Shown here one piece after another: positions 7,236-26,159 of a stretch of 26,159 nt of DNA. The position numbers and the translations under genes are program-made. Source of the DNA: Candidatus Undinarchaeales archaeon (GTDB lineage: Archaea; SpSt-1190; JASMDC01); contig JASMDC010000049.1 in the NCBI GenBank assembly GCA_030753015.1, positions 1 through 26,159 of the forward strand, given 5' to 3'. The notes under the pieces are model-generated. The model saw only the letters and a list, made by a program, of their open reading frames with translations, searched no databases and was not told where the DNA came from. Each line of letters begins with the position of its first letter. The stretch's first letter is position 1.

Positions 7236-7811
7236 ATGGTGCGTGCACGTTCCCTCGGGGCACTGGTCGCGGTGCTGTGGTTGACCGCTTTACTGGCGTT
7301 GTCACAGGACGCCGAGGTCGTGATCGCCAATGCTCCCGAGATCCCCGAGTGCGACGCCAAGGCTATCGATGCGGCGCGACAGTTCTGCTACTTCGACGCC
7401 GCCATGGAGCTGTGGCGCACGGACACCAAGGGAGCGCTTGCCATCTGCAACGAGCGCATCACGGACGTGAGCGGACGTGACCTCTGTCGACTCGACGTGG
7501 CCTCCCACCTACTGGGCAAGGACATCGAGATGGTGGCCCGCGTATGCACCACCGACTATATGGGGCGGGAGGACGACTGCTTCAACTGGGTGTGGAACAA
7601 CGCCACCACCGTGCAGGCGGTCCAGCTCTATGCTCGCTGGAAGCCGCTGCGGACCGCTCTCGGAATCACAGTGGCCCTGTTCCTGCTCTTCAAGATATCC
7701 CGGCGTCTCAGCCCCGCTCCCGATCCGTACGCGGAGCAGATGAGGCTACAAGCACAGCAGAGCGGCTACTACGCGCAGAGCTGGCAGATGACCGGCCGGC
7801 GGTACTACTGA
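7236..7811 (+). CDS. Signal-peptide protein with six-cysteine domain and C-terminal membrane anchor
   Basis: 191 residues. A signal sequence (LGALVAVLWLTALLAL) leads into a roughly 100-residue extracytoplasmic domain with six evenly spaced cysteines (ECDAK, FCYFD, ICNER, LCRLD, VCTTD, DCFNW). The repeated C-x(4-6)-R/D-x2-C pattern suggests three disulphides in a helical repeat. One helix (TALGITVALFLLFKI) and a 45-residue Gln/Tyr-rich cytoplasmic tail follow. ATG 7236 has GGAGAT six nucleotides upstream, overlapping the end of the AIR-synthase-like gene, so the two genes are translationally linked. I do not recognise the family. Its stop overlaps the convergent small gene by 7 bp. Confidence 0.75.
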   Translation: MVRARSLGALVAVLWLTALLALSQDAEVVIANAPEIPECDAKAIDAARQFCYFDAAMELWRTDTKGALAICNERITDVSGRDLCRLDVASHLLGKDIEMVARVCTTDYMGREDDCFNWVWNNATTVQAVQLYARWKPLRTALGITVALFLLFKISRRLSPAPDPYAEQMRLQAQQSGYYAQSWQMTGRRYY

Positions 7812-13034: not shown

Positions 13035-13682
13035 TCAGGCCGGACCGGCACCGGAGAGCTGTCCTTTTACCCACTCACCGAAAGATCGCCCGAACGCCAC
13101 GGCATCATCCCGCCGCGCCTCGACCTCATCGTCCTTCACCCATAGCTCACGGTCGAACGTGGCCAGACGGGCGTCTCCGAGCTTGCGGGTGATGATGCCG
13201 TCCTCGCCCTTCAGCTCCCAGCCGAAGGTCCCGAATCCACCGGCAGGCCGATTTGCCAGGGCGATGATGCGCAAACTCTCGAGCAGCCCCTTGATCGCCT
13301 CGGAGACGTTCTCGAACTGGCTGGGCGAGCCCAGGAGCACGGCATCGGCGAGGAGCACCTCGGGAATCGCCTCTCCAGAGGCCTCCAGCACCGCCACCGA
13401 GCACTCTGCCTGACGGACACCCTCAGCGATGGCCTTGGCCAGCGTGGCCGTTCGCCCGCTCACGCTGTCGTACATGACCAGTACACGTGGTTTTCCTGTC
13501 CGCGAATGCTCCAGGGTGACAGCGTACTTCAGGCACGCCCGGACGCATTCCTCGCACTCAGTGCAGTCCGCGGGCCGCATGACGACACCCTTACCGTCAA
13601 TGAAGTCGAACACATTAGCAGGACACACGGAAACGCAGGTACCCGCTCCCGTGCATCGCCGGTAATCTATCCTCGGGGGCAT
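13035..13682 (-). CDS. Ferredoxin-flavodoxin fusion protein
   Basis: 215 residues. The N-terminal 60 residues are a two-cluster ferredoxin domain; the rest (from KPRVLVMYDSVSGRTATLAKAI) is a flavodoxin-like FMN domain with the phosphate-loop DSVSGRTAT and the GSPSQFENVSE and GTFGW loops. Such fusions carry one-electron transfers between ferredoxin pools and flavin. Cluster motif 2 is complete (C40, C43, C46, C50). Motif 1 reads C10-T-G-A13-G-T-C16-V-S-V-C20-P, so the second cysteine of the CxxCxxCxxxCP pattern is alanine. That site may hold a [3Fe-4S] cluster or use another ligand. ATG at 13682 was chosen because it starts at the ferredoxin domain and has GATAAAAG 23-32 nt upstream. A decayed duplicate of its 5' end lies at 17138-17210. 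Confidence 0.86.
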   Translation of the reverse strand: MPPRIDYRRCTGAGTCVSVCPANVFDFIDGKGVVMRPADCTECEECVRACLKYAVTLEHSRTGKPRVLVMYDSVSGRTATLAKAIAEGVRQAECSVAVLEASGEAIPEVLLADAVLLGSPSQFENVSEAIKGLLESLRIIALANRPAGGFGTFGWELKGEDGIITRKLGDARLATFDRELWVKDDEVEARRDDAVAFGRSFGEWVKGQLSGAGPA

Positions 13683-13705
13683 CGATCTGCCGATGGATGG
13701 GAACT

Positions 13706-13715
13706 GATAAAAGCC
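13706..13715 (-). promoter_or_regulatory. TATA-like box of the ferredoxin-flavodoxin gene
   Basis: GGCTTTTATC on the minus strand lies 23 nt before the ATG ending at 13682, fitting leaderless transcription. The duplicated copy at 17138-17210 breaks off just inside this box. Confidence 0.5.
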
Positions 13716-13805: not shown

Positions 13806-13832
13806 TTAAACCCACCTTCTCCAATCTAACTC
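13806..13832 (+). repeat. Left terminal inverted repeat of the IS
   Basis: Contains CCCACCTTCTCCAATCTAA-CTC, which matches the reverse complement of the right end (CCCATCTTCTCCAGTCTAAACTC) with two mismatches and one gap. Confidence 0.85.
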
Positions 13833-13986
13833 CTGACGACCTTGCTCGCGCCACGTAACTGATCGTGTAATAGCTCCCCCGCTACTGATTTCCCTCTGGA
13901 GTTTGTGGAATCCCCCCCAATAGTTTCCGTCCCGACTTTTTCAAAAAGAGAACACTTAAATAAGATAACTAGATAACATTCATTGG

Positions 13987-15825
13987 GTGCTCAGAACGTC
14001 CCGACCAAGATCGAAGCTCAACTGGTTTCTCAAGAAGCAGACCCGAACGAAGAAGGGCGACACGCGATACGACTACTACAGCATCGTCGAGCCATACTAC
14101 GAGGACGGGAAGAATAAGCACAGGGTAGTATTCCGGCTCGGGCGATTGATGCCTCAGCAGGCACTTCTCGTCAGGAGCCTGCTCAATGCTGCGAAATCCG
14201 GGGATGACGTGCTCTGTCTGAACATCAAGGACATACTTTTCGAGGACCACTGGAGGTATCTGGACGTCGCCTTCCTCAACCACCTCTGGGACGAGTGGGG
14301 GCTATCGAAGGTGTTCCCGTCGCCCGAGGAAACGAGCAGCAGGAGGGGGAAGGACATCGCGACCGCCGACGTCGCGAAGGCACTGACCTTCTACCGGTGC
14401 CTGGAGCCGGGGAGCTACCTCTCGTCGGCGGGGTGGTTCGAGGGGACGGCATGCGACCGCATCCTCGGCATAGACGGCTCACACTTCAACGACTCCAGGG
14501 TGTACCGGGAGCTGACGGTGATCGACGGGCTCAAGGAGAAGCTGGAGACGTACCTCTACACCACGCTGAGGGACAGGGACGAGGAGAGCTTCAAGGTAAT
14601 CTTCTACGACCTTTCCGACTCGTACTTCGAGGGGACCAAGTGCAAGCTCGCGAAACCGGGGATCACCAAGGCCAACGGCTTCAAGAGCAGGAAGATCGTC
14701 CTCTCCCTCCTCGTCAACTCGATGGGCTACCCCTTCTCGTGGGAGATCCTCCAAGACTACACCTCGGACGTCAAGACGCTCACGGCCAACGCTGACCGGT
14801 GGAAGCAACGGTTCGATCTCCCAAAGATCATCTCGGTGTTCGATCGCGGGATGGTGTCCGACGAGAACCTCAAGCACCTGGAGGAGAGCGAAACCTACCT
14901 GTACATCACCGCCCTCGACAAGGACCAGGTCGCCGGCGTGCCCGGCGTCCGTCTGGACCGGTTCAAGGACCTCACTGTGGAGAATGTCGAGAAGAAGGTC
15001 GGCCGCTCACGGTTCCTCACCAAGTACGACGACTGTGCGTACTACGAGGATCTTGGTACGGCCGAAGGATCGGTCAGGCGTCACATCCTGGGGTTCAACC
15101 CCGAGCTCTTCAAGGACCAGAGGAAGCAGCGCGAGGAGCAGATCAAGAAGGCACTGGACTGCCTGAAGGAGGAAGGGGCGGCGCTGCTGAAGGCGAAGAA
15201 GAGCAGACAGAAGAAGCCGACTGAGCAACGGATCGACCGCAAGCTCAAGAAACTGAACGTGACGCGCTTCATCGGCTACGAGCTCAAGGAAATTGAGCTG
15301 GAGAGCGGGGTGCGGACCTTCGAGCTCAGCTACCGGAAGAAGACAAAGGCGATCGAGAAGGCCAAGTTGACCGACGGCCTCTGGGTACTCGTCACCAGCA
15401 TAACCGCGGATACGCAGCCGAGGGAGTTCAGGCTCGGGCCGGAGGAGATCATCAGGGCCTACCGCGACAAGAACCGCGTGGAGGAGGCGTTCAGGGAGCT
15501 GAAGTCGTTCATCAAGTTCAAGCCGACGTTCGTCTACACAATGGAGCACGTCAGGGCCCATTACACCATCTGCATACTCGCGTATCTCTTGGACGTGACG
15601 GTCACCAACAGGCTGCGCGAGGGCCCGATAGAGGGCATGACCAGTGTGAGGAAGGTGTACAAGCTCCTGGAGCGGATCAGATTGGGAGAGCTGAAACTTC
15701 GGGGCATGGATCGAACGGTGAGAAGGATCGTCACCCCGAGACCGATCGAAAAGGACGTGCTGAGATCATTCGGTTGTGAACACTTGCTGAAGAAGACGTA
15801 TCTTCGGTCGATACAGACCGACTGA
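13987..15825 (+). CDS. IS1634-family (DDE) transposase
   Basis: 612 residues from a GTG, the full length for this family. It catalyses cut-and-paste-type movement of the surrounding element. The catalytic triad is recognisable: first Asp in VIFYDLSDSYFEGTKC, second in ISVFDRGMVSDENL, and the Glu in the C-terminal Y-x2-K-x-R-V-E-E-A-F-R-E-L-K signature (YRDKNRVEEAFRELKSF). A long, charged insertion (about residues 375-430) separates the last two. The N-terminal 60 residues carry the usual family start (YDYYSIVEPYYEDGKNKHRVV). No ribosome binding site is obvious, and the upstream TTAAATAAG/TAACTAGATAAC stretch may be the promoter. Codon choice resembles the host genes, so it may have moved within related genomes. 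Confidence 0.93.
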   Translation: MLRTSRPRSKLNWFLKKQTRTKKGDTRYDYYSIVEPYYEDGKNKHRVVFRLGRLMPQQALLVRSLLNAAKSGDDVLCLNIKDILFEDHWRYLDVAFLNHLWDEWGLSKVFPSPEETSSRRGKDIATADVAKALTFYRCLEPGSYLSSAGWFEGTACDRILGIDGSHFNDSRVYRELTVIDGLKEKLETYLYTTLRDRDEESFKVIFYDLSDSYFEGTKCKLAKPGITKANGFKSRKIVLSLLVNSMGYPFSWEILQDYTSDVKTLTANADRWKQRFDLPKIISVFDRGMVSDENLKHLEESETYLYITALDKDQVAGVPGVRLDRFKDLTVENVEKKVGRSRFLTKYDDCAYYEDLGTAEGSVRRHILGFNPELFKDQRKQREEQIKKALDCLKEEGAALLKAKKSRQKKPTEQRIDRKLKKLNVTRFIGYELKEIELESGVRTFELSYRKKTKAIEKAKLTDGLWVLVTSITADTQPREFRLGPEEIIRAYRDKNRVEEAFRELKSFIKFKPTFVYTMEHVRAHYTICILAYLLDVTVTNRLREGPIEGMTSVRKVYKLLERIRLGELKLRGMDRTVRRIVTPRPIEKDVLRSFGCEHLLKKTYLRSIQTD

Positions 15826-15888
15826 GCGGTGAGAACGTGGTTTCAGTCCCGATATTTGAGAGGGGGTTCGTCTCCGTACCACCTTTTC

Positions 15889-15918
15889 GAGTTTAGACTG
15901 GAGAAGATGGGATTAAAC
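15889..15918 (-). repeat. Right terminal inverted repeat of the IS
   Basis: GAGTTTAGACTGGAGAAGATGGG is the near-perfect inverse of the left end at 13806-13832. Confidence 0.85.
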
Positions 15919-17125: not shown

Positions 17126-17215
17126 TTCACAGGCTCTGCAGGTGCCCGCTCCCGTGCGTCGTCGGTAGTCGATCCTCGGTGTATCGGAGTGCCGATGCGT
17201 GTGAACTGATGGAAT
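17126..17215 (-). pseudogene. Decayed 5' end of a ferredoxin-flavodoxin paralogue
   Basis: 17138-17210 aligns with 13635-13708, roughly 60 of 74 positions by hand with one gap, in the same orientation and including the untranslated segment before the start codon. Translated, it reads PRIDYRRRTGAGTC, as in the intact gene. The ATG has been lost by a small deletion, the first cluster cysteine is Arg, and the frame slips at the would-be CP of CxxCxxxCP. Many of the differences fall in third codon positions, suggesting the copy was once a working gene. It stops near 17126, where the tRNA-like repeat begins, so most of the gene has been deleted. Confidence 0.72.
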
Positions 17216-22373: not shown

Positions 22374-22601
22374 ATGATGCCGCATCCTGACGAAGAAACA
22401 CTGCTTACAGCACCCACATCGCTCCATGAAGCTGACGAGGCCCTCATAGACACGTTCCTCGACTACCGTGGCGCTTATGGGCCCGAGATCGGAGCGAGCG
22501 GGATGTCGGGAAGCGAGCGGTGGGACCACTCCAAGGAGCATGCCATCGCCGACCTGTGGAGCGACGAGGGCGTCAACGACTTCCGGCCGACCATCATCTG
22601 A
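22374..22601 (+). CDS. Small acidic soluble protein (operon gene 3)
   Basis: 75 residues, acidic, with no membrane segment (HPDEETLLTAP; DEALIDTFLDYRGAYG; EHAIADLWSDEGVNDFRP). It starts 1 bp after the preceding stop, with AAGGAGGA as an excellent ribosome binding site; ATGATG gives two adjacent starts. It probably accompanies the two small membrane proteins. No family recognised. Confidence 0.65.
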   Translation: MMPHPDEETLLTAPTSLHEADEALIDTFLDYRGAYGPEIGASGMSGSERWDHSKEHAIADLWSDEGVNDFRPTII

Positions 22602-22626
22602 TCTGACGGCGAGGACTTCATGTCCT

Positions 22627-22645
22627 ACCCCGCCAGCAGCTGCCA
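22627..22645. repeat. 19-bp direct repeat, left copy (orphan DUF835-gene 3' end)
   Basis: ACCCCGCCAGCAGCTGCCA is identical to 23765-23783. On the minus strand this copy still reads WQLLAG followed by a TAG stop, the last residues of the PAS/DUF835 gene that now ends 1.1 kb away. It marks one edge of the HEPN-MNT cassette. Confidence 0.8.
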
Positions 22646-22673
22646 TTACTGATTGATGGGCCTCATCGACCGT

Positions 22674-23270
22674 TCATCGCGGCCAGGTCCACACGTTAAT
22701 CTCCTGCCAGCGTGCCCCCTGCTGCTTCAACACGCCAATGATCCGTGGCGCCTTCTCGGTATCCACCAGAAGGACGCTGTCCGCGACCTTCTCCACGCCC
22801 TCCTCTTCGGCTACACCGCGTGCCCTTGAGACGTATTCTTTGCCTTTCCGGGTGGAACGTGACACTCCTCCATAGAGCGCTCTGCGTATCCTCATCTTGT
22901 CGGATTGTGCAAGACCGCTCATGTCGTACGCGATGAGTACCTTCGGGGCCAGAGCGACATCGTCCGAGGTGACGTTTACGGGCCTCCCATGAAGAAGAAG
23001 GCCCTCGCTTGCCAGCGCACCGGCCAGGGTCGGCTCCTCGGTGAGCCGGGAGAGCGTCAGATGTGTGAGCTGGACCTTCTCGTCCTTGATCGACTCGAGC
23101 TCGGCCTCGGTCCCCGGATTCCTTTTTGCGTACACGACCGCTACGTCTACATCGGAAGTAGGTGTGTCCTCCCCCCGAGCGACCGACCCGAAGAGCACGA
23201 CCTGAAGCACGTCTGGAAAGTCGCGAGCTCGATGTGCGAACGAGATGGCCCGCCGTAGGTTCCCTCTCAC
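22674..23270 (-). CDS. MNT-type nucleotidyltransferase, antitoxin of a HEPN-MNT pair
   Basis: 198 residues from GTG. The minimal nucleotidyltransferase motif GS-x10-D-x-D is complete (LFGSVARGEDTPTSDVDVAVVY, ligands S29, D40, D42). In type VII toxin-antitoxin systems the MNT protein neutralises its HEPN partner by transferring AMP to a tyrosine next to the toxin's active site. Beyond the usual MNT length, this one carries about 100 extra residues with a basic segment (RIRRALYGGVSRSTRKGKEYVSRARG), perhaps DNA binding for autoregulation. The start overlaps the HEPN stop as GTGA, so translation is tightly coupled, toxin gene first. The function is inferred from motif and gene pairing. Confidence 0.83.
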   Translation of the reverse strand: MRGNLRRAISFAHRARDFPDVLQVVLFGSVARGEDTPTSDVDVAVVYAKRNPGTEAELESIKDEKVQLTHLTLSRLTEEPTLAGALASEGLLLHGRPVNVTSDDVALAPKVLIAYDMSGLAQSDKMRIRRALYGGVSRSTRKGKEYVSRARGVAEEEGVEKVADSVLLVDTEKAPRIIGVLKQQGARWQEINVWTWPR

Positions 23271-23641
23271 GAGGTCTCACCCTCCGTGCAGAGCCCGATG
23301 ATCAGATGTGCGATCTCCCGGGCGACCTTGGCGGACCCGCCGTTCCTGCCTGTCCCATAGACATGGAGCGGTCTCATGCGCTCGATCCGGTCGAGGAGGT
23401 CCGCGACCTCGGCGCTCTTCTCCCCGAGCCGCTCCCAACGACGGAGCTCACCGGGGAGCCGGTTATGCTTGATGTCCTGGCTGACCTTCAACGTACCGCG
23501 CACGTGCATCCCGAGGTTAGCTGCGTGGGAACAGACGAGCACGCACACCTCGATGACCGTCTCGTGGTCCTCTTCATCATCGAGCTTGTCGAGGGTTCTG
23601 AGCATGCGCTCGATCTTCTGACGGTGCATGTCCACACGCAT
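23267..23641 (-). CDS. HEPN-domain ribonuclease-like toxin
   Basis: 124 residues, mostly helical, as in HEPN domains. The catalytic R-x4-6-H signature appears as R88-M-R-P-L-H93, followed by V-Y95. This gives the R-x4-H-x-Y arrangement of HepT-type toxins, where the tyrosine is the AMP acceptor. It overlaps the MNT gene downstream by 4 bp. The leader contains GTTAATATTC (23664-23673), 22 nt before ATG 23641, as TATA box. Sequence similarity to classical HepT is otherwise weak by eye, so the assignment depends on motif plus MNT partnership. Confidence 0.72.
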   Translation of the reverse strand: MRVDMHRQKIERMLRTLDKLDDEEDHETVIEVCVLVCSHAANLGMHVRGTLKVSQDIKHNRLPGELRRWERLGEKSAEVADLLDRIERMRPLHVYGTGRNGGSAKVAREIAHLIIGLCTEGETS

Positions 23642-23762
23642 AGTTATTGATAAGACAGAATTAGAATATTAACTTTTCTGTTATATGTATATACCGCAGG
23701 TTATAATTATCTATATAACGAAATCTAATTTCTGTTTATTTCGTTATATTTATTTCACACCC
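23642..23762. promoter_or_regulatory. Very AT-rich control region of the HEPN-MNT operon with inverted repeats
   Basis: About 75-80% A+T in a GC-rich genome. It contains a perfect 12-bp inverted repeat, ATATAACGAAAT (23713-23724) and ATTTCGTTATAT (23738-23749), 13 bp apart. GTTATA recurs at 23680, 23700 and 23743, with its inverse TATAAC at 23714. The HEPN TATA box lies at 23664-23673. The arrangement suits operators for an autoregulating antitoxin or toxin-antitoxin complex; alternatively the hairpin ends the PAS/DUF835 transcript. Confidence 0.65.
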
Positions 23763-25277
23763 TCACCCCGCCAGCAGCTGCCAGCACTTCTCCGTGGCCT
23801 CGAGGCGCTTGGTGGCGCCGTCCTCGACCTCCACGAGATAGCCGAGCCTGATGAGCTCGCGGATGCGCTTTCGTGCCGTGGGCTTGCTGATGGCAAGCTC
23901 CCGGTCCACGTCCGAGTAGGAGGGTCGCTCCCCGTCGAGCCCGGTACGGTACACGTACCGCACGATGGCCAGCAGCTCCTCCGAGATCCCGCCGAGCTCG
24001 CGTGCGTCCACCTGCTCGCATTCCTTCTCCAAGCGGCGTAGCGCGCGCTCGTCCAGGTCCGACGGATCGACGCCAAGGACGATGACATGACCGCCCACAT
24101 AGGCCATCTCCCGCAGGTGCTGCACGAAGGAAAGCGTGGCCTCCAGCCCGTTCTTGAACAGGATGTAGTCGAGCCGGTCGATGAGGACGGCGCTGTGCCG
24201 TGGCAAACCGCCTATGCGGCGCTCGAGCGCGGTCAGCCGCGGCGGCACTCCCCGCTCGCCACCATGCTCGGCCAGCCAGACATAATCGTACTCGCCTTCG
24301 AGGTCCTTGCGGAACGCCTCCTCGGTCGTGCACGAGATGACCGTCCCGTCGTAGCCCGTGGTAAGGAGGTCCTTGAACGCTTCGACGTAGTGGCGGTGGG
24401 TGCGGCCTTTCATAAGATAGACCTGCCCCTCATCGAGGAGATAGCGCATCAGCCTGCGGCGCAGTAAGCGCTCGGCCTCACGTCGCTCGGTGACGTCCTC
24501 GAGCGACAGCAGGACACGCTCACCATGGCCGGGCCGTCGCTGGAGCCGGCGTGCGCTCAGCAGCATCGTCCGCGTCCCGGCCCCAGGGAGCTCGCACCCC
24601 ATCTCGGCCCCGTCGACCGGCTGGCCCTTCTGCAGGACGTCCTCGAGCAGGCGCCGCAGTCGCCACACGTCCCACTGCCCGCCGCCCAGCCCGTAGAGCG
24701 GGCGTCCCTCGGTGCGCTTTCCCGTGGTACGGAAGGTACGATAGAACGCTCGGTTGGCCGAGAGCACCTTGAGCCCGTCGTCCAGCACCACGAGCGGTAC
24801 GGGGACTGTCTCGACGATGTTCACCGCGAATTCCTGGAGCTGCTGCTCGGCCTGCTCGAGCTGGCGACGCGCGGTGACATCGACCATGAACTCGATCACG
24901 TGGGTGACCGCGCCCTTCTGGTCGTGGACGGGATAGACGTGAATCTCCGTTGTCAGCGGTTGTCCCTCGGCGTCCTTGTGTACGTGGTCGACCGTTACGG
25001 CATTGCCCGTCCGCACCACCTCGTCGAGCGGGCAGGGCTCGTCATCGCCCGTGCACGGGATGTCCCGCTCGTGGGTGAGCTCGTGGCACGTGATACCCTC
25101 TCTGAACTCACCGCTCGGGCCAGCGGTGTTGGCGGCGACCACTTGGTGCGTACGGGCGTCTATTACCATGAACGTGTGCGGGTGGTGGTCGAGGAACGAG
25201 CGGAGCACACGCTCGCCCAGCGTTCCGTCGCTCCCGACATGCTTGCCACCGGCCATGAGGGTGCTTTTTTTCACCAT
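23763..25277 (-). CDS. PAS-domain sensor protein with DUF835-like domain and winged helix
   Basis: 504 residues. Two PAS-type domains come first: about 15-140, with cysteines in ITCHELTHERDIPC and GDDEPCPLDE, ending in HVIEFMVDVTARRQLEQ; then about 150-275, VPVPLVVLDDGLKVLSANRAFY, ending in VLLSLEDVTERREAERLL. A DUF835-like alpha/beta domain follows (YLMKGRTHRHYVEAFKDLLTTGYDGTVISCTT to HSAVLIDRLDYILFKNGLEATLSFVQHL). A C-terminal winged helix (SYSDVDRELAISKPTARKRIRELIRLGYLVEVED) probably binds DNA. This reads as a cytoplasmic one-component sensor-regulator, an architecture common in Thermoplasmata and related archaea. The four cysteines and histidine of PAS 1 could bind metal, heme or an Fe-S cluster. 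ATG 25277 follows GGAGGGAGG; the TnpB element's end hairpin abuts this site, so its natural promoter may have been displaced. Confidence 0.82.
   Translation of the reverse strand: MVKKSTLMAGGKHVGSDGTLGERVLRSFLDHHPHTFMVIDARTHQVVAANTAGPSGEFREGITCHELTHERDIPCTGDDEPCPLDEVVRTGNAVTVDHVHKDAEGQPLTTEIHVYPVHDQKGAVTHVIEFMVDVTARRQLEQAEQQLQEFAVNIVETVPVPLVVLDDGLKVLSANRAFYRTFRTTGKRTEGRPLYGLGGGQWDVWRLRRLLEDVLQKGQPVDGAEMGCELPGAGTRTMLLSARRLQRRPGHGERVLLSLEDVTERREAERLLRRRLMRYLLDEGQVYLMKGRTHRHYVEAFKDLLTTGYDGTVISCTTEEAFRKDLEGEYDYVWLAEHGGERGVPPRLTALERRIGGLPRHSAVLIDRLDYILFKNGLEATLSFVQHLREMAYVGGHVIVLGVDPSDLDERALRRLEKECEQVDARELGGISEELLAIVRYVYRTGLDGERPSYSDVDRELAISKPTARKRIRELIRLGYLVEVEDGATKRLEATEKCWQLLAG
23765..23783. 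repeat. 19-bp direct repeat, right copy (end of the PAS/DUF835 gene)
   Basis: Identical to 22627-22645; here it encodes the WQLLAG C-terminus of the PAS/DUF835 protein, followed by TGA instead of the TAG of the left copy. Confidence 0.8.
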
Positions 25278-25293
25278 CCTCCCTCCAAGGAAG

Positions 25294-25322
25294 CCCCCCA
25301 ATTCATTGGGGGGATGAATTGG
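25294..25322. repeat. Two mutually exclusive hairpins at the TnpB element's left end
   Basis: Hairpin 1 pairs CCCCCCAAT (25294-25302) with ATTGGGGGG (25305-25313). Hairpin 2 pairs CCAATTCAT (25298-25306) with ATGAATTGG (25314-25322); both stems are 9 bp and perfect. CCCCCCAAATT recurs at 25384-25394 and could compete for the G run. IS200/IS605 elements carry subterminal hairpins at their ends, and the position fits a left end. An RNA switch in front of the sensor gene is an alternative. Confidence 0.6.
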
Positions 25323-25426
25323 AGAGTAGTACGTCGTGACACCTTCGCCGTGAACCCTCCCTGGGAGAAATACCGGCACGCTGCCCCCCAAATTGATAAA
25401 TGAGCTAAATGATAGAACATGGACTG

Positions 25427-26159
25427 ATGGAGCAGACGATCATCGTCAAGCTCGACACGACGGTTGAGCAGCATGACAAGCTCCTTTGGACAATGAAGAC
25501 GTTCAACGCCGCCTGCAACCATGTAGCTGGGTTTGCCTTCGATCTCCGAACAGCCAGCAAGTTCCGGCTTCAGCACGGTATCTATCATGAGGTTAGGGAG
25601 AGGTTCGGCCTCTCTGCTCAGATGACCGTGAGGGCCATCTCCAAGGTCTGCGAGGTCTACAAGCGGGACAAAAGCATCAAGCCGACATTCCAGAAGCGGG
25701 GAGGAATGGTCTACGACCAACGCATCATGTCGTGGAAGGGGCTTGAGAAGGTATCTCTCCTGACACTCGAAGGACGGGAGATAATCCCCATCCGCATAGG
25801 CGAGTACCAAGAGTTGAGGTTGAAGAACCACATCCGTGGTCAGGTAGACCTCATCTACCGCAAGGGGAGGTTCTACCTCGCGGTTGTAGTCGATGCTCCC
25901 GAGGCCGATGAGTTCGATGCCGTTGGTGCGCTCGGCGTGGACCTCGGACTCAACAACCTCGCCGTCGACAGCGACGGTGACTCGTACAGTGGGAAGGATG
26001 TCGATACCGTACGCGTCAGGACGGACAGGCTCAAAGCATCTCTCCAGCGGAAAGGGACCAAGAGTGCTAAGCGGCATCTCAAGAAGCTCTCCGGCAGGGA
26101 GAATCGTTTCCGTCGCAATACTAATCATATCATCTCGAAGCGTCTGGTGGCGAAAGCCA
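25427..26159 (+). CDS. tnpB: TnpB RNA-guided nuclease, partial
   Basis: 244 codons are visible and the frame is open at the window's edge. TnpB proteins are OMEGA-RNA-guided DNA endonucleases with a RuvC fold, ancestors of Cas12. The N-terminal helical part (EQTIIVKLDTTVEQHDKLL; FNAACNHVAG; AQMTVRAISKVCEVYK) and the wedge-type beta strands (GGMVYDQRIMSW; IRGQVDLIYRKGRFYLAVVV) lead into the first RuvC motif, GVDLGLNNLAVDSDG, with its catalytic Asp. A basic RLKASLQRKGTKSAKRHLKKLSGRE helix and the R-x-N-H-I-I-S-K segment follow. The catalytic Glu, zinc ribbon and last Asp would be beyond the window. ATG 25427 is preferred; ATG 25419 hits a stop at once. The G+C content looks lower than in the neighbours. 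Confidence 0.9.
   Translation, partial: MEQTIIVKLDTTVEQHDKLLWTMKTFNAACNHVAGFAFDLRTASKFRLQHGIYHEVRERFGLSAQMTVRAISKVCEVYKRDKSIKPTFQKRGGMVYDQRIMSWKGLEKVSLLTLEGREIIPIRIGEYQELRLKNHIRGQVDLIYRKGRFYLAVVVDAPEADEFDAVGALGVDLGLNNLAVDSDGDSYSGKDVDTVRVRTDRLKASLQRKGTKSAKRHLKKLSGRENRFRRNTNHIISKRLVAKA

Follow-up and report, generated by a model that had tools for sequence, protein, structure and literature searches.

Within the window, by which we mean the whole 26,159-nt stretch of DNA that was analysed, a small cassette lies between two copies of a 19-bp direct repeat (Table 1). The cassette contains two genes only, one for an MNT-type nucleotidyltransferase and the other for a small helical partner protein. 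The two genes overlap by 4 nt and stand behind an AT-rich leader, GC content dropping to 46% in positions 23500-23799. Neither gene encodes a recombinase, as the first-pass annotation of this DNA had noticed, and tRNA and Rfam searches of the window returned nothing. The window also holds an IS1634-family insertion sequence, and contig C44 of the same genome carries a transposase stretch 90% identical to it. A diverged 74-bp repeat brackets this element together with a dihydrouridine-synthase-like gene, and parts of that repeat match contig C11 near 93.6 kb.

Table 1. Features of the window, with positions counted from its first nucleotide.
Feature	Positions	Strand	Description
Diverged direct repeat	13635-13708 / 17138-17210		About 81% over 74 bp; core encodes PRIDYRRCTGAGT
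IS1634-family insertion sequence	13811-15911		Imperfect inverted ends; 6-bp ATTAAA target duplication
Left flank	22602-22626	.	Between upstream + ORF (stop 22599-22601) and left repeat
Left repeat copy	22627-22645	.	Minus strand reads WQLLAG plus TAG; outside any ORF
Cassette, putatively inserted	22646-23764	-	1119 bp; GC 57%; without terminal inverted repeats
MNT-type nucleotidyltransferase, putative antitoxin	22674-23270	-	198 aa; GSx10DxD motif; extra C-terminal domain
Small helical partner, putative HEPN-type toxin	23267-23641	-	124 aa; RMRPLHVY
AT-rich leader, presumed promoter of the pair	23642-23764	-	From composition
PAS/PAS_4-DUF835-HTH gene, 3' end duplicated	23763-25277	-	From domain matches
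Right repeat copy	23765-23783	.	Final six codons of the PAS/DUF835 gene, plus the first base of its stop
TnpB gene and IS605-type left end	25283-26159		Runs off contig

The nucleotidyltransferase matches Pfam PF01909 (2.9e-10) and scores 38.3 bits against the NCBIfam MntA model, below the cut-off of 60. Its motif residues G28, S29, D40 and D42 are invariant in five paralogues; five MNT proteins, once aligned, proved too divergent to serve as a scan query. For the partner, Pfam and NCBIfam searches gave no match to a HEPN model, a profile of its family gave only chance-level matches in the PDB, and the structure model was of low confidence (mean pLDDT 44) and unusable. The HepT motif is RX4HXY. 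The RMRPLHVY stretch of the partner fits it, with a first R and an H that are not conserved in relatives. The partner can be aligned with the partners of other MNT genes in the genome and with a Caballeronia protein, a 35% homologue found on the megaplasmids of Caballeronia sp. SBC1/SBC2 (L228 5001-5363, where no gene is listed), which adjoins a different gene and is without bracketing repeats. As in HEPN/MNT (HepT/MntA, type VII) toxin-antitoxin (TA) systems, a gene for a small helical protein overlaps that of an MNT nucleotidyltransferase with GSx10DxD. In contrast to those systems, the MNT protein of the window is longer, with its 198 aa and extra C-terminal domain, and lies below the MntA cut-off, and HEPN models do not recognise the partner. 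Judging from these sequence features, the cassette genes are likely a HEPN-MNT pair. The first-pass annotation had placed only such a pair and its AT-rich promoter between the repeats; the two genes, the leader and the MNT protein are as it described, whereas the HEPN assignment was left unconfirmed by sequence search. The same cassette was found in none of the collections of viral contigs, plasmids and genome contigs.

The repeated 19-mer, ACCCCGCCAGCAGCTGCCA, is perfect in both copies, which lie on the plus strand at the two places first proposed; when the comparison is extended to 24 nt, 22/24 positions are identical. The right copy, read on the minus strand, gives WQLLAG followed by TGA and closes an ORF of 542 aa. 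Since relatives of the PAS/DUF835 protein end at an equivalent position, WQLLAG is the native C-terminus and the gene is whole, so that the earlier attribution of this copy to the end of the protein holds. The true start of the gene is probably near 25277, because the ~48 codons at the beginning of the open frame are found again on contigs C56, C75 and C66, as IS605 left-end sequence. The left copy does read WQLLAG plus TAG away from its gene, as had been claimed (TGG CAG CTG CTG GCG GGG TAG), and belongs to no ORF because an in-frame TAA precedes it. Together with the left flank this copy could form a strong hairpin, GGCGAGGAC-TTCAT-GTCCTACCCCGCC, and the predicted empty site folds at -30.5 kcal/mol, among the lowest 2% of 600 gene ends. 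A target hairpin as a common feature of the four sites described below was rejected, as it is strong at the window site only.

A further possibility, that the repeat is a frequent motif of this genome, was checked: the 19-mer occurs only twice in 3.85 Mb, with no third copy at up to 2 mismatches. In shuffled windows, 0.01 sites were expected by chance for the 19-mer pattern with up to 3 mismatches. For exact repeats 300-3000 bp apart, order-3 Markov windows gave an expectation of 0.01 per window at lengths of at least 17 nt, and 0 in 200 windows at lengths of at least 19 nt, against 1 observed. A chance origin of the 19-bp repeat is excluded.

Three further TA cassettes bracketed by short isolated direct repeats of the target were found in the same draft genome (about 5% contamination), one by inspecting paralogues and two by a scan for isolated direct repeats; the scan covered 1.15 of its 3.85 Mb on contigs chosen partly for their MNT paralogues and therefore does not yield an unbiased rate. 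The first, on C56 and reached through the paralogues, is a second HEPN-MNT pair, the closest paralogue of the window pair, in an insert of 1121 bp flanked by a 51-bp repeat (48 identical). There, a 265-aa gene is followed by an AT-rich leader, then by the HEPN-like and MNT genes, and finally by a repeat of the 265-aa gene's own end; all three differences between the copies fall at third codon positions. On C48, a 94-aa protein and a Zn-ribbon/MazE antitoxin are encoded in an 809-bp insert bracketed by a 19/19 repeat that is unique in the genome; the repeat begins 4 nt past the stop of a 309-aa gene and the cassette ends 4 nt after the stop of the antitoxin. The last and largest, on C11, is 4024 bp long and codes for a ParE toxin, for an RHH antitoxin and for a protein of 648 aa; its 23/23 repeat runs across the TGA of a gene that has a convergent neighbour. 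The 648-aa protein has a weak IS256-transposase match, and recombinase-like content is present in this one of the four cassettes only.

The last codons of a neighbouring gene are overlapped by the repeat at three of the four sites, all but C48, and the sites on C61 (the window), C56 and C11 lie between convergent genes. The four repeats (19, 51, 19 and 23 bp) are unrelated in sequence, and the four cassettes have no common left or right ends and no inverted repeats. Coming from three different TA families, the four cases point to one shared route and not to a property of one toxin family. They also strengthen the original proposal that the window cassette had inserted at a gene 3' end and supplied a new TGA: the last 19 nt of the gene stand on both sides of it, and three further cassettes have the same layout.

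With repeats internal to proteins, paralogues, contig ends and attC-like sites left aside, these TA cassettes accounted for most of the isolated repeat-bracketed segments in the scan. The isolated repeats that do not fit are C84 44662/46145, a promoter-like 21-mer, C84 2942/7291, and those of C67. The second of these (L090, 2942-3130 / 7291-7479) is a 189-bp repeat of a nucleotide-sugar gene end that encloses a UDP-sugar dehydrogenase gene along with HEPN and MNT genes, and was set aside as a complex rearrangement. C67 (L087) carries a TA array (VapBC-like, HEPN/NTase-like) with ~57-bp interspersed repeats and a 22-bp palindrome, TTACTGAAATTTATTTCAGTAA. The repeats of C82 (L089), C87 (L091) and C53 (L098) were set aside as a different phenomenon: they are attC-like sites (one example being ACATAAC ... 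GTTATGT with a hairpin in between), recognised by eye between small TA cassettes, and their presence suggests that this genome contains an integron or CALIN array. Such arrays have been reported in archaea (PMC9668308). Two tandem tyrosine recombinases of ~375 aa with IntI-like C-termini are encoded on C31 (L223), and a broken relative on C76. Most TA loci, in this genome and elsewhere, have no bracketing repeat.

In other archaeal genomes, bracketing repeats of 42-90 bp were observed at 3/30 MntA loci, against 0/29 control loci. At L143 the repeat (51 bp, 47 identical) is a gene 3' end whose displaced copy ends in its own TAG. At L154 (1396-1437 / 2317-2358; 42 bp, 41 identical) a promoter region is duplicated around the HEPN-MNT operon, and the operon and the downstream gene both retain a promoter copy. 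At L148 the repeat (90 bp, 89 identical) falls within the 3' portion of a gene that, by eye, looks like cas6 at its glycine-rich end; a duplicated piece internal to a gene is not what plain target duplication gives. Two other loci were set aside: L152 reflects a tandem duplication of a gene, and at L137 the match lay inside the MNT gene. A stricter test (score of at least 25) retained 1/40 MntA loci, compared with 7/960 overlapping control windows (0.7%) from the same 20-kb regions, an enrichment that is weak, partly since the filters missed L143 and L154. That repeat-bracketed TA insertion is general in archaea is suggestive only.

Protein and DNA searches of 100 relatives and of genome contigs gave no empty site for the window, the nearest relatives sharing the class only, and the collection of genome contigs yielded no homologue. 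Nor were empty sites found for L143, L148 and L154 in their genera, and no excised form of the cassette was seen.

Our favoured explanation, which we hold to be reasonably probable, is that a TA-like pair entered the space between convergent genes as one compact unit, duplicating a 19-bp target, and that the same type of event took place at at least three other TA cassettes. The first-pass annotation had instead compared the repeats to the att sites of integrating elements. They would then be attL and attR, left when a circular cassette bearing the gene 3' end was integrated by a tyrosine recombinase supplied in trans. The position at a gene end and the restoration of the C-terminus do resemble integrase targets, and genes for tyrosine recombinases are present in the genome on contigs C31 (a tandem pair), C76, C53 and C88. 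An att site, however, implies a repeat that is constant for the element, whereas the four repeats show no relation to one another in sequence or length and contain no common core, the related C56 pair uses a different target, and the cassette ends are not shared; unrelated repeats and unlike ends leave target duplication. With integrative elements at gene 3' ends the window cassette has in common the 3'-end repeat on both sides and the preserved C-terminus, and it differs from them in encoding no recombinase or integrase, in a repeat that changes with every site, and in measuring only 1.1 kb. We consider integration of this kind improbable, and insertion with a long target duplication appears to fit the four sites better. 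Integron gene cassettes are small mobile units, often with TA genes. The likeness to them is in size, mobility and cargo, whereas no attC-like site was seen in the window cassette, in contrast to C82 and C87, which do have such sites.

An origin by homologous recombination, in which a donor bearing the neighbour gene's end and the cassette recombined into the gene end and left two copies, is also unlikely in our view. It would account for the third-codon differences at C56, which would be expected had a diverged allele been the source of one copy, and the gene-internal 90-bp repeat of L148 fits a carried gene fragment. Against it, 19 bp is very short, the repeats of the window, C48 and C11 are perfect, and the model gives no account of how a gene end was first joined to the cassette. 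The repeat being short, and insertion not being demonstrable from one site alone, it might also be a coincidence or the remnant of an old tandem gene-end duplication unrelated to the cassette; we find this very improbable for a 19-mer that is unique, of which essentially none is expected by chance, and given the recurrence around three other TA cassettes. Slightly less credit still is due to an IS1634-type transposase acting in trans with the cassettes as its passengers, which we take to be the most improbable of these accounts. The window does hold an IS1634-family transposase (NF033559, 244 bits, cut-off 100), and IS1634 and IS1549 are known to make long repeats of variable length, some members of the family making direct repeats of 8-514 bp (PMC2266710). 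The resemblance lies in these variable-length direct repeats upon insertion. In contrast, the local IS1634 copy has its own inverted ends and made a 6-bp ATTAAA duplication, whereas the cassettes have no terminal inverted ends and that of the window no transposase. The element in the window is an unlikely helper of cassette insertion.

We infer insertion, its direction and its chemistry from the arrangement of the repeats. Under insertion with target duplication, the cassette would have entered a short gap between two convergent genes. The gene-side copy of the 19-bp target would keep the C-terminus of the PAS/DUF835 protein, its stop now being completed by the cassette (TGA), and the far-side copy would keep what is presumably the old stop (TAG). 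Most likely, a staggered break or a pair of nicks opened the target, the incoming cassette was joined to it and the gaps were filled in, in which case the length of the repeat would follow the stagger. Addiction would then preserve the cassette, and selection would retain only insertions that spare the neighbours. Such selection would by itself lead to gene-end positions, which may reflect only the survival of harmless insertions.

Insertion with long and variable target duplications has been described for restriction-modification (RM) genes (PMC3874152, PMC3031569; after Nobusato et al. 2000 and Furuta et al. 2010). The likeness is that of an addictive unit without its own transposase, flanked by target-derived direct repeats of variable length; the differences are a TA cargo of several families, a host that is probably archaeal, judging by DUF835 and by the related genomes, and repeats of 19-51 bp instead of the order of 100 bp. 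The statement in the earlier annotation that a mobile TA unit of this kind was not known is accordingly to be restricted: the kind of event is described for RM genes, and the literature that we found contains none with this cargo and host.

More tentatively, and with considerable doubt, archaea may possess a general, recombinase-independent route by which breaks near gene ends capture unrelated addictive pairs, with target duplications of 19-100 bp and both neighbours left intact, and such a route might explain much of the way in which TA cassettes are scattered over their genomes. The finding bears on the spread of chromosomal TA cassettes in the absence of mobile-element machinery, and it links TA mobility to a behaviour described for restriction-modification genes. 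Repeats that record their target predict the exact empty site, for the window a single 19-mer reading WQLLAG-TAG and then directly GACATGAAGTCC, and thereby provide a direct test of the spread of TA cassettes.
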